Shown piece by piece: positions 5,009-8,388 of a stretch of DNA of 64,000 nt. The stretch spans positions 3,131,501 through 3,195,500 of the forward strand of contig NZ_CP041025.1 in NCBI RefSeq assembly GCF_006385135.1, written 5' to 3'. The notes beneath the pieces are model-generated. The model was not told where the DNA came from. It ran no database searches and saw nothing but the letters and a program-made list of their open reading frames with translations. Positions within the stretch are counted from its first letter, which is position 1. Each line of letters begins with the position of its first letter. This DNA comes from Paremcibacter congregatus (GTDB lineage: Bacteria; Pseudomonadota; Alphaproteobacteria; Sphingomonadales; Emcibacteraceae). Made by a program: the position numbers and the translations under genes.

Positions 5009-5596
5009 ATGATAAAATCCACTTACCTCGAAGGACAACTCCTGCTCGCCATGCCCGGCATGACCGACCAACGCTTTGACCGCAGTGTGATTTATATCTG
5101 TAGCCACAATGAAGAAGGCGCCATGGGCCTGGTGATTAATGAAAAGGCATCCAATATCGACTTTCCTGACCTGATGGATCAGTTGAATATTCCTTATGAT
5201 GCCCAGAAAAGCCAAGGCAACCCCAACCCCACAGATGACATCATCCTTCATACCGGCGGACCTGTGGAAATAGGCCGGGGCTTTATCCTGCATTCGGCAG
5301 ACTATGTTCAGGACACGACTCTGATCATTTCTGAAACCGTCGCCCTCACCGCCACCATCGATATTCTGTCGGCCATCGCCGAAGGCCGTGGCCCGCGCCA
5401 TTATATTATCGCTCTGGGCTACACCGGCTGGGGCAAGGGGCAGCTCGAAAGCGAACTCAGCCGCAACAGCTGGCTCAACACAGAGGCCGACTCAGAATTG
5501 CTTTTCCGCACGGATCTTGATTTGAAATGGCCGCGCGCCATGGCCAAGCTTGGCATTGACATTACCCTGCTGTCCACCCATGCGGGCAACGCCTGA
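5009..5596 (+). CDS. yqgE: YqgE/AlgH family protein
   Basis: 195 residues from the ATG at 5009 (MIKSTYLEGQLLLAMPGM). Conserved family blocks are LLLAMPGMTDQRFDRSVIYIC, read in two parts, and GAMGLVINEKAS, then a central LHTGGPVE and GYTGWGKGQLESEL near residue 150. The frame is open upstream to a GTG at 4955, but a TATAAT at 4940-4945 would put the transcript start almost on that GTG, and homologues begin close to the MIKS methionine, so the later start is preferred. The family is conserved in proteobacteria but its molecular function is not settled. It is divergent from the DsbD-domain gene and is followed by a candidate small RNA. Confidence 0.9.
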   Translation: MIKSTYLEGQLLLAMPGMTDQRFDRSVIYICSHNEEGAMGLVINEKASNIDFPDLMDQLNIPYDAQKSQGNPNPTDDIILHTGGPVEIGRGFILHSADYVQDTTLIISETVALTATIDILSAIAEGRGPRHYIIALGYTGWGKGQLESELSRNSWLNTEADSELLFRTDLDLKWPRAMAKLGIDITLLSTHAGNA

Positions 5597-5615: not shown

Positions 5616-5630
5616 ATGCAATAATTGCAT
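5616..5630. promoter_or_regulatory. Perfect inverted repeat ATGCAATAATTGCAT
   Basis: Two 7-base arms around one central base, 20 bases after the yqgE stop and about 60 bases before the candidate small RNA. It has no T-tract, so it is not a terminator; it may be an operator for the RNA promoter. Confidence 0.25.
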
Positions 5631-5688
5631 GGCTGCATTGTAATTTATGCCTCTAGTGTCCTTCAGCCCATTCCCCTATATTCCCCTC

Positions 5689-5845
5689 AGATGTTTTGAA
5701 CATCTACGGATAAAACGCTCCCAAGTTTTATCCTGCTATAACTCCCGCCCTCCCTGGGTGTTATAGCTTGTTTCATTGTCTCCCAAGACATGAAGCCTCC
5801 CTATATTTTGAGACTTGCCGGGTTTTTTAACCCGGCATTTTTTTT
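5689..5845 (+). ncRNA. Candidate small RNA with CUCCC loops and intrinsic terminator
   Basis: Four consecutive hairpins are visible. A: AGATGTT/AACATCT (5689-5705). B: GGATAAAAC/GTTTTATCC, perfect 9 bp, loop GCTCCCAA (5708-5733). C: CTATAAC/GTTATAG extended by CCC/GGG across a T-T mismatch, loop GCCCTCCCT (5736-5766). D: TGTCT/AGACA, loop CCCA (5777-5790). A single-stranded GCCTCCCTAT follows, then a 9-bp terminator stem TGCCGGGTT/AACCCGGCA (5816-5837) with eight Ts (5838-5845). CTCCC occurs five times between 5719 and 5801, mostly in loops, which would expose anti-Shine-Dalgarno sequence. TATATT at 5677-5682 could be the -10 element, giving a start near 5689, but no good -35 box is seen. The RNA could also be a processed yqgE 3' end. 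The layout resembles the alphaproteobacterial alpha-r14/cuckoo class; membership is not established. Confidence 0.6.
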
Positions 5846-6052
5846 GCCTTAACATCTTATATAAATCCATATTAACTATATGATAAATATATCTTTTATA
5901 AACATTAGCAAAAATAAAAGTTAAAGATTTATCTATTAACACTCCCTTAATACTTGCGCTGTAAATTACTTTTCAAGTGCATAACAAGATGCCGAGATCT
6001 GATCCGTATATAATGATCGGACCACATATGATATCGGCACTGATTTTTTAAA

Positions 6053-6561: not shown

Positions 6562-8331
6562 TTAGTATCCTGCAGCCTGGCCGTCTTTGCGCATTTCCGA
6601 CGCCGCCTTATAAACCCCCTGATCGCGGTCCCAGTAGATCATCTGATACCCCCCGTAACCGCCTTTATCGATTTTTACCCTGTGCCCGCGGGATCTCAGA
6701 TCCATCACGACATGGTCTGCCACACCAAATTCCACGTTAAGCACTCCGCCATCAGTCATGATCTGTCCTGTTGGCTGGCTTGAACCGTCATGGCGATAAC
6801 GCGCCACATCACCGGCTTCCTGCACATTCATGCCGAAATCAATGATATTGCTGATGATCTGCGCGTGCCCCTGAGGCTGCATCCCGCCGCCCATAAGACC
6901 AAAACTCATCACTGGATGTCCGTCTTTCATCACAAAGGCCGGAATGATGGTATGGAATGGCCGCTTGCCGGGCGCGTAGACATTGGGGTGATCTTTCTTC
7001 AGGGCGAAGAGCTCTCCCCGGTCCTGTAACATAAAGCCCAGGCCATCCGGCACCAGCCCTGACCCCATCCCCCGGTAATTGCTTTGAATCAGACTGACCA
7101 TCATGCCATCCTTATCCGCCACCGTCAGATAAATGGTGTCTCCGTCTTGTAGAACGTCCGGGTCCGGATATTTCACTTTCTTCAGGACCTTGTCCATACG
7201 AATCAGCTTACGCCGTTCTGCGGCATATTCCTTGGACAGGAGCTTCTCTATCGGCGCCTTGAAATATTCCGGGTCGGCATAGAATCGGGCCCGGTCCTCA
7301 AAAGCAAGCTTCTTCGCCTCTGTATGTACATGCAGATAATCCGCACTGTTATGGCCCATGGCTTTCAGATCAAAGCCTTCCAGAATATTCAGCTGCTGCA
7401 ATGCGGCTATGCCTTGGCCGTTCGGCGGCAGCTCGAACACATCATAGCCGCGGTAATTCACCGATTGCGGTTCAACCCAGGTGCTGGTGTGACGCGCCAG
7501 ATCTTCTTTACGGATATATCCGCCAATGCGCACCATATAAGCATCAATGGTGGTGGCGATTTCTCCCTTGTAAAACGCGTCACGTCCCCCCTTCGCAATC
7601 CTTTCCAACGTCCGGGCCAGATCAGGATTCCTGAACATCTGCCCTTCCACTGGCGCCTTGCCATCAGGATAATAGGTTTTCAGGAAATTCTCCGTTTCCT
7701 CTACCCCCGAATTTTCCGCCAGGAACCGCTTGCCCGCGATTTTCATATAATGGGCAATCAATTGCGTCACGGGGAAACCTTCCCTGGCATAGCGGATTGC
7801 CGGCGCGAGGTTTTTCTTCATCGACAATTTGCCAAACTTGCGATGCAATTCAAACCAGCCGTCCACCGTACCGGGAACCGAAACCGGCAAGCTGCCATAT
7901 TTCGGGATTGAGGAGACGCCGCGTCTGGCCAGCTCTTCTTTCATTTTTTCATAACTCAACCCAATCGGCGCTCGTCCCGAACCATTCAACCCATAGAGTT
8001 TTTTGGTTTTCGGGTCCCAGACTATGGCGAAAATATCCCCTCCAATGCCGTTCCCTGTGGGTTCCATCAGTCCGATGGCCGCGTTGGCTGCAATCGCCGC
8101 ATCTACCGCCGAACCGCCGTCTTTCAGGATATCCAGCGCCACCTGGGTGCCCAACGGTATGCTGGTTGCCGCCATACCGTTTTTGGCGATCACCTGGGAC
8201 CTGGTGGCGAATTGCGCCCCGACATTACGGTCGCCCCGGTCTGATAAAGCAGTAGCTTCCCCTGCAGAGGCCCCCACAGACCCGCCGGCAATCATGCTCA
8301 ACACACCTATTGTATACATCCATATCTTCAT
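6562..8331 (-). CDS. Gamma-glutamyltransferase family protein, exported
   Basis: 589 residues from the ATG at 8331, preceded by GGGAGGAATTTCTG, a strong ribosome site that excludes the longer frame upstream. A signal peptide ends near SVGASA. Family landmarks are AATSIPLGTQVALDIL, GGSAVDAAIAANA, the EPTGNGIGGD segment and, at the autocleavage site, GDTIYLTVAD with the Thr that would become the N-terminal nucleophile. GLMGGGMQPQGH lies near the C-terminus. Members hydrolyse or transfer gamma-glutamyl groups, for example from glutathione, in the periplasm. It lies 71 bases downstream of the S10 peptidase and behind a terminator (8355-8388), which leaves no room for a separate promoter. Exact substrate not known. 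Confidence 0.9.
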   Translation of the reverse strand: MKIWMYTIGVLSMIAGGSVGASAGEATALSDRGDRNVGAQFATRSQVIAKNGMAATSIPLGTQVALDILKDGGSAVDAAIAANAAIGLMEPTGNGIGGDIFAIVWDPKTKKLYGLNGSGRAPIGLSYEKMKEELARRGVSSIPKYGSLPVSVPGTVDGWFELHRKFGKLSMKKNLAPAIRYAREGFPVTQLIAHYMKIAGKRFLAENSGVEETENFLKTYYPDGKAPVEGQMFRNPDLARTLERIAKGGRDAFYKGEIATTIDAYMVRIGGYIRKEDLARHTSTWVEPQSVNYRGYDVFELPPNGQGIAALQQLNILEGFDLKAMGHNSADYLHVHTEAKKLAFEDRARFYADPEYFKAPIEKLLSKEYAAERRKLIRMDKVLKKVKYPDPDVLQDGDTIYLTVADKDGMMVSLIQSNYRGMGSGLVPDGLGFMLQDRGELFALKKDHPNVYAPGKRPFHTIIPAFVMKDGHPVMSFGLMGGGMQPQGHAQIISNIIDFGMNVQEAGDVARYRHDGSSQPTGQIMTDGGVLNVEFGVADHVVMDLRSRGHRVKIDKGGYGGYQMIYWDRDQGVYKAASEMRKDGQAAGY

Positions 8332-8354
8332 CAGAAATTCCTCCCGTATATCTT

Positions 8355-8388
8355 TAAAAAAAGAGCAGGTCATTTTCATAACCTGCTC
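8355..8388 (-). terminator. Intrinsic terminator between the S10 peptidase and the GGT gene
   Basis: On the minus strand GAGCAGGT and ACCTGCTC form an 8-bp stem with a 10-base loop followed by seven Ts. It starts 15 bases after the S10 stop codon and ends 24 bases before the next start codon. Confidence 0.85.

Follow-up and report, generated by a model that had tools for sequence, protein, structure and literature searches.

A yqgE-linked small RNA of Paremcibacter congregatus as a probable member of a class-wide, LsrB/VtlR-linked family of anti-Shine-Dalgarno RNAs

We consider it likely, with a probability of roughly three in four, that a locus near the start of the 64,000-nucleotide stretch of the Paremcibacter congregatus genome analysed here (hereafter the window) carries the gene for a small RNA that acts in trans, measures about 158 nt, is a yqgE-linked paralogue of a class-wide family of LsrB/VtlR-linked anti-Shine-Dalgarno RNAs, is the positional and functional counterpart of AbcR1, and acts by the mechanism proposed below. 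The anatomy, conservation, covariation, promoter box, neighborhood and family relationship of this locus were all obtained here.

The RNA is predicted to extend from 5688 to 5845 on the plus strand, its ends being placed by a -10 element and a terminator, with C5688 assumed as the first nucleotide from the alignment. For the stretch from 5689 to 5845 the predicted fold comprises four hairpins plus an intrinsic terminator, as an earlier sequence-only reading had described, with a minimum free energy of -60 kcal/mol versus a mean of -27.7 for shuffled sequences (z = -9.59; 0 of 200 shuffles as good). The same reading held that the region lacks a coding frame, and the list of open reading frames for the window indeed contains no plus-strand frame of at least 60 amino acids that overlaps the RNA, by which a protein-coding reading of the locus was ruled out. 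On the minus strand, a 68-amino-acid frame with a GTG start (5736-5942) overlaps the locus.

In the predicted fold, hairpin 1 (5689-5705) forms the 5' end and is followed by hairpin 2 (5708-5733), which has a 9-bp stem and the loop GCUCCCAA, and by hairpin 3 (5735-5767), whose loop carries CCCUCCC. Hairpin 4 (5770-5796) consists of the core hairpin GUCUCCCAAGAC within a longer stem. The single strand CCUCCCUAUAUUUU (5796-5809), with its conserved CUCCC, is probably the main seed, and the predicted terminator (5816-5845) combines a hairpin at 5816-5837 with a tail of U residues. Copies of CUCCC are located at 5718, 5742, 5750, 5780 and 5797, a number that was reached in 0 of 5000 dinucleotide shuffles of the RNA (mean 0.32). 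This agrees with the count of five in the sequence-only reading, with the correction that the copy at 5742-5746 lies mostly within the stem of hairpin 3, so that four copies are accessible in the predicted fold: those in the loops of hairpins 2, 3 and 4 (the last in part) and that in the single strand preceding the terminator.

With positions 5660-5850 as query, BLAST gave matches at E≤1 in 44 of 60 genomes, the weakest of them due to chance, as well as a second copy in P. congregatus itself at 1760304-1760438. From the 43 copies that remained once identical ones were removed, 15 were used to build a covariance model, R1; six copies had been dropped as duplicates, together with one in which no T-run was found (L042), and another (L046) was dropped before the first alignment, A1. 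The window copy (L001) is one of these 15 sequences, and its own match to R1 (5688-5845) scores 133.1 bits. Within the order, R1 has matches at E≤0.01 in 64 of 196 genomes, the weakest of which we do not trust, and at E≤1e-10 it finds 44 copies in the 41 loci searched, which belong to the same family and to one other family of the order (f4). Left out before that search were three duplicates (L037, L040 and L041) as well as L045 and L046.

The alignment of these 44 copies (A4) includes both copies from P. congregatus and was fitted to the R1 structure, which leans the pair counts. In this alignment, 94.9% of cells pair and 30 of 46 pairs exhibit changes on both sides. The covariation score is 0.413, whereas slid controls score 0.041-0.064 and shuffled alignments 0.153, none of 500 shuffles reaching the observed value. 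Changes on both sides occur at all 7 modelled pairs of hairpin 2, at all 11 of hairpin 3, and at 7 of the 9 pairs of the terminator, in which 100% of cells are paired. The pairs of hairpin 4 hardly vary and so provide little evidence from covariation. CUCCC is retained most often in the single strand (43 of 44 copies), followed by hairpin 3 (40 of 44, counted anywhere in the hairpin), hairpin 4 (33 of 44) and hairpin 2 (25 of 44), and each RNA carries two to five motifs, with five present in 2 of the 44. The relatives in genus g5 (L015-L018 and L021-L028) retain the stem of hairpin 2 with a UUCUUUAA-like loop that has lost CUCCC. Stems and loops are thus kept among relatives, so that the earlier proposal survives the comparative half of its own refutation test. 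The conserved motif loops, the covarying stems and a conserved promoter box lend good sequence support to the earlier proposal of an anti-Shine-Dalgarno small RNA.

The promoter box, GCATGGCTGCATT, lies at 5627-5639 on the plus strand and matches the published VtlR/LsrB consensus GCAT-N3-TG-N3-T (PMC8844928, PMC7486931). It occupies -61 to -49 relative to the predicted start, the same interval that is reported for the box of Sinorhizobium meliloti abcR1 (PMC8844928). A strict box is present in 29 of the 44 copies, always at -60 to -62, and the reversed pattern in 0 of 44. All nine yqgE-linked copies have the strict form, as do 20 of the 35 lsrB-linked copies; of the 15 copies that lack it, 14 carry a box with one or two mismatches, and the remaining one is without a box. 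This last copy is the downstream member of a tandem pair in genome G016 (L013:1729-1885), and it recalls the RpoH1-dependent AbcR2 of S. meliloti (PMC8844928). Each RNA copy is preceded by the exact 14-mer GCATRGCTGCATTG, which is found at no other place in the 4.19-Mb genome; allowing up to two mismatches yields 64 matches in the genome versus 26 for a reversed control. A one-mismatch copy of the 14-mer, GCATAGCCGCATTG, is found on the minus strand at 7399-7412 inside the open reading frame 6562-8379, probably by chance, given that 1.47 matches are expected per window at two mismatches.

Downstream of the box, a -10-like element, CTATAT, is located at 5676-5681 on the plus strand, and CTATA-like sequences occupy this place in most copies. 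The published core promoter of abcR1 is CTTGAC-N17-CTATAT (PMC8844928), which has the same -10 element. The -35 region of the window promoter is poor, and a generic sigma-70 scan reports no plus-strand promoter at the locus; a poor -35 would fit an activator-dependent promoter. Published accounts of this activation do not agree, and for S. meliloti it is disputed. AbcR1 is lost in Agrobacterium without vtlR, AbcR1 and AbcR2 are reported as unchanged in S. meliloti 1021 without lsrB, and in Brucella abortus VtlR activates abcR2 and not abcR1 (PMC7486931). Contrary to that report, S. meliloti AbcR1 is elsewhere described as dependent on LsrB (PMC8844928). In other orders, looking for the strict box within as much as 900 nt past the lsrB-type gene turned up matches at 23 of 74 loci, but this search had neither a position filter nor a control, and we therefore take the box as demonstrated for the 44 copies only. 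As a reading of the motif upstream of the RNA, the S. meliloti PhaR/AniA site was rejected, since TGCA-N4-TGCA does not have its published YGCR-N-YGCR spacing.

The neighborhood of the RNA takes two forms. The gene upstream on the same strand is of the lsrB type in 35 of the 44 copies and yqgE in the other 9, which include the window copy. In the window this gene (5009-5596, plus strand, start codon uncertain) is of the yqgE/algH type (DUF179), a call made through a relative (L070), whose corresponding gene carries PF02622. The second copy of the RNA in P. congregatus follows a LysR-type regulator gene that is itself preceded by a thioredoxin reductase gene (trxB), and Pfam matches place trxB before the lsrB-type gene in those relatives whose locus reaches that far. 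The designation LsrB-type is based on LysR family and trxB synteny. The order trxB-vtlR-abcR1-abcR2 is reported for Agrobacterium (PMC7486931), and abcR1 and abcR2 adjoin lsrB in S. meliloti (PMC8844928). Promoter box and gene neighborhood together therefore point to the LsrB/AbcR1 position.

The yqgE-linked set comprises the window copy and copies from six other genomes of the genus and from genomes G016 and G017. Seven of these nine group in a FastTree phylogeny (support 0.88; L042 was left out of the tree), and the copies from G016 and G017 fall elsewhere. Gaps between gene and RNA range from 58 to 153 nt among the 44 copies, apart from tandem second copies (381-422 nt) and those of L039 (1169 nt) and L038 (894 nt); eight of the nine yqgE-linked copies are within the common range, the ninth having the gap of 894 nt.

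The RNA of the lsrB-type loci extends well beyond the relatives of P. congregatus. A scan with an LsrB-type alignment yielded 80 named loci, of which 74 were retained once six with less than 250 nt downstream were left out. Two CTCCC motifs separated by 8 to 16 nt and followed by a T-run occur at 39 of these 74 loci; neither the opposite strand of that same region nor a 900-nt region lying farther upstream has the pattern at any of the 74. The shared core consists of ACGUCUCCCAGACGU-GAAGCCUCCCUGUUCAACU and a terminator, and in the window the hairpin 4 core GUCUCCCAAGAC is the counterpart of ACGUCUCCCAGACGU at other loci, just as the single strand CCUCCCUAUAUUUU is the counterpart of GAAGCCUCCCUGUU. 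A second covariance model, R2, was built from 28 of the 39 core sequences, all from lsrB-type loci of other alphaproteobacteria and none from Emcibacter; the remaining 11 were left out of the underlying alignment (A5), five that were cut short by the T-run rule and the others for thinning.

In the P. congregatus genome, R2 detects only the two RNA genes at E≤0.01 (E = 1.9e-8 and 2.2e-8), and it is the 3' half of the window RNA that matches this lsrB core. R2 also matches 35 of 60 relatives, 89 of 190 genomes of the class at E≤0.001, and 57 of the 80 lsrB-type loci, in every case on the lsrB strand, although 28 of the 57 had built the model. From the 25 class hits with the best RNA scores, 20 were examined (two had no flank, one was a second hit of the same genome, and two were omitted for no reason). 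These hits were chosen without reference to lsrB, yet 15 of the 20 have an lsrB-type gene upstream on their own strand at a distance of at most 2.5 kb. For the other five no full lsrB-type gene lies that near; one of them has a partial match 2.8 kb away, and four have none in the stretch. A sequence resembling hairpin 1, GATGTTGCGACGCAGCATC (at most 4 mismatches in 19), precedes the core in 15 of the 57 RNAs at lsrB-type loci and in 0 with the reversed control.

These RNAs are apparently an uncatalogued and widespread LsrB-linked family of alphaproteobacteria. Rfam models yield no match at gathering score in 20 lsrB-type loci, and below the threshold the nearest match among ten such loci is to SorX, with 45.5 bits against a cut-off of 46.6 in a Sneathiella metagenome-assembled genome (MAG). 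We recognised no reports of such LsrB-linked RNAs outside rhizobia in the open-access literature, and a search of a paper on Azospirillum small RNAs gave no lsrB-linked RNA. In Emcibacter and its relatives the family takes a form with further motif hairpins and a second locus, and is of the AbcR/NfeR1 kind. The conservation of the core is sufficient for a new RNA family model.

The closest parallel is provided by AbcR1 and AbcR2 (alpha-r15, RF02345), RNAs that were studied for their roles in symbiosis and in plant or animal infection (PMC8844928, PMC7486931, PMC3712013) and that silence mRNAs with two anti-Shine-Dalgarno motifs (PMC8844928). Both systems sit beside lsrB/vtlR after trxB, with tandem copies in some genomes, a likeness that holds for the second copy and for the 35 of 44 copies that follow an lsrB-type gene, the window copy following yqgE. 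They also have in common the box at -61 to -49, the CTATAT element, and a motif in a hairpin loop and in the single strand that follows (here hairpin 4 and 5796-5809). In contrast, the window RNA is longer (158 nt predicted versus 114-121 nt), has the additional motif-bearing hairpins 2 and 3, and carries CUCCC/CCUCCC in place of CUCCUCCC and UUCCCCUC. The ar15 family is described from Rhizobiaceae and Brucellaceae (PMC3712013), and its model gives no match at the window RNA at E≤10 and none in the whole genome at E≤1. The model has weak matches in 10 of 60 relatives (best 33.1 bits versus 40), and at E≤0.001 it matched none of the 190 class genomes, although no control genome gave a match in that search either. 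Kinship with rhizobial AbcR thus rests on position, promoter and design, and by the Rfam models the window RNA is not a member of ar15 or of ar14.

Three other readings were weighed. The sequence-only reading likened the RNA to the alpha-r14/NfeR1 (cuckoo) family (RF02344), whose members have three hairpins with divergent stems, each bearing the motif CCUCCUCCC (PMC10746234). The likeness in design is real, several hairpins each presenting an anti-Shine-Dalgarno motif in both cases, and NfeR1 is reported to be activated by LsrB (PMC10746234), so that the box alone does not decide membership in the AbcR group. Moreover, sub-threshold ar14-like RNAs do occur downstream of lsrB-type genes in some other lineages, with 54.5 bits in Pelagibacterium, 33.4 in Phaeomarinobacter, 32.2 in Rhizomicrobium and 30.8 in a Rhodospirillaceae MAG, all below the gathering score of 58.8 and drawn from 11 of the 23 loci without R2. 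Nonetheless, neither the window RNA nor its paralogue has an ar14 match at E≤10, the hallmark CCUCCUCCC is absent, with the shorter CUCCC/CCUCCC in its place, the neighborhood differs, and over its 3' half the RNA matches R2, the model of the lsrB core. On these grounds membership was rejected, and we regard it as improbable; the earlier interpretation as a whole is partly supported. NfeR1 is also said not to interact with Hfq, unlike AbcR1 and AbcR2 (PMC8844928). In Pelagibacterium (L203), two ar14-like RNAs with CCUCCUCCC in their loops (5386-5518 and 5691-5822; 54.5 and 37.2 bits, cut-off 58.8) lie about 2 kb downstream of the lsrB-type gene.

A divergent alphaR8 RNA (MmgR/SisA-D; suhB, RF00519) is about equally improbable. 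At gathering score, Rfam reports no match at the RNA, the sole hit in the window being a glycine riboswitch (RF00504; 17747-17835, plus strand, 75.1 bits). Below threshold the best match is to suhB/alphaR8, with 30.5 bits against a cut-off of 41, followed by SorX (24.6) and anti-hemB (23.3), all of which cover the 3' half or two thirds of the RNA, and homologues reach up to 38.4 bits on the suhB model (G011) among the matches listed. What is shared is a 3' module of hairpin, CCUCCCU and terminator, and the published alphaR8 seed, UUUCCUCCCU, is likewise anti-Shine-Dalgarno, SisA silencing mRNAs with a single 10-mer (PMC12559287). However, a full-scoring alphaR8 of 67.4 bits is present elsewhere in the genome (2968948-2969021), adjoining an FGase gene (2968005-2968706), which is the published neighbor of alphaR8 (PMC12559287). 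That alphaR8 copy is not among the R2 matches at E≤0.01, and the family of the window RNA has lsrB or yqgE as its neighbor; membership in alphaR8 was rejected. SorX (RF02784) has a CCUCCCUGUU-type 3' module in common with the window RNA, which scores 24.6 bits, and its paralogue 31.8, against a gathering score of 46.6. Slightly less probable still is that the RNA derives from the 3' untranslated region of yqgE and shares the regulation of yqgE, in which case the box would be a relic. It starts about 90 nt past the yqgE stop codon on the same strand, short gaps are found in 8 of 9 yqgE-linked copies, and Rhodobacter SorX is itself derived from a 3' untranslated region (PMC6238624), but a relic would not need the strict box that all nine copies retain, nor the -10-like element.

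In six relatives (G016, G017, G018, G034, G040 and G046; loci L063, L069, L064, L067, L066 and L065, respectively), a canonical alphaR8 lies about 9-14 kb from the lsrB-linked RNA on the same contig, a proximity that may hint at an old duplication or a shared locus.

A broader proposal, to which we give somewhat less than even odds, is that an LsrB-controlled anti-Shine-Dalgarno RNA is an ancestral alphaproteobacterial module that is older and wider than rhizobial AbcR. Its core of ACGUCUCCCAGACGU, GAAGCCUCCCUGUU and terminator would have been decorated by lineage with motif hairpins (hairpins 2 and 3 in the relatives of Emcibacter) and duplicated to give the yqgE-linked copy, and AbcR, perhaps along with NfeR1, SorX and alphaR8, would represent local descendants or replacements. 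Genera with lsrB-type loci or R2 matches include Emcibacter, Azospirillum, Thalassospira and Kiloniella, and if they have the same LsrB-driven RNA, the link from regulator to translation would be older and more general than the rhizobia. Naturally occurring differences in the number of motif hairpins could be used to study how motif dosage sets the reach of a regulatory RNA.

From the sequence we infer transcription of the RNA, activation by LsrB, binding by Hfq, the targets and the direction of regulation. A LysR-type regulator of the LsrB/VtlR kind, encoded beside the second copy, would bind the box at -61 to -49 and switch on transcription from CTATAT, and the RNA would end at the intrinsic terminator. 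It would probably be held by Hfq, whose gene is present in the genome. The CUCCC/CCUCCC motifs in three loops and one single strand could then pair with the G-rich ribosome-binding sites of a set of mRNAs, probably those for transport and envelope proteins, and so prevent their translation.

The earlier statement that GGGAG/GGAGG ribosome sites are common in the window is overstated for GGGAG, which is found at -20 to -4 before 2 of 44 open reading frames (0.7% of random stretches); GGAG precedes 8 of 44 (2.6%). Among 350 genes sampled from the window and a further 400 kb, GGGAG occurs before the start of 19 and GGAG before that of 70. The scarcity of GGGAG before starts argues for a selected set of mRNAs rather than all mRNAs. 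The leader of one full-scoring LivK-like gene, taken from the start as read, contains no GGGAG. Ten candidate targets, hand-picked from the 30 best among the 350 genes, include two TonB receptors and two antiporter-type proteins, together with an aminotransferase, a NuoF-like protein, a sigma-54 activator, a glycyl-tRNA synthetase subunit, an integrase and a topoisomerase IV subunit. For comparison, ten of 30 random genes include no transporter, two of them having no Pfam match. This exploratory look at hand-picked candidates provides a hint that TonB receptors are among the targets.
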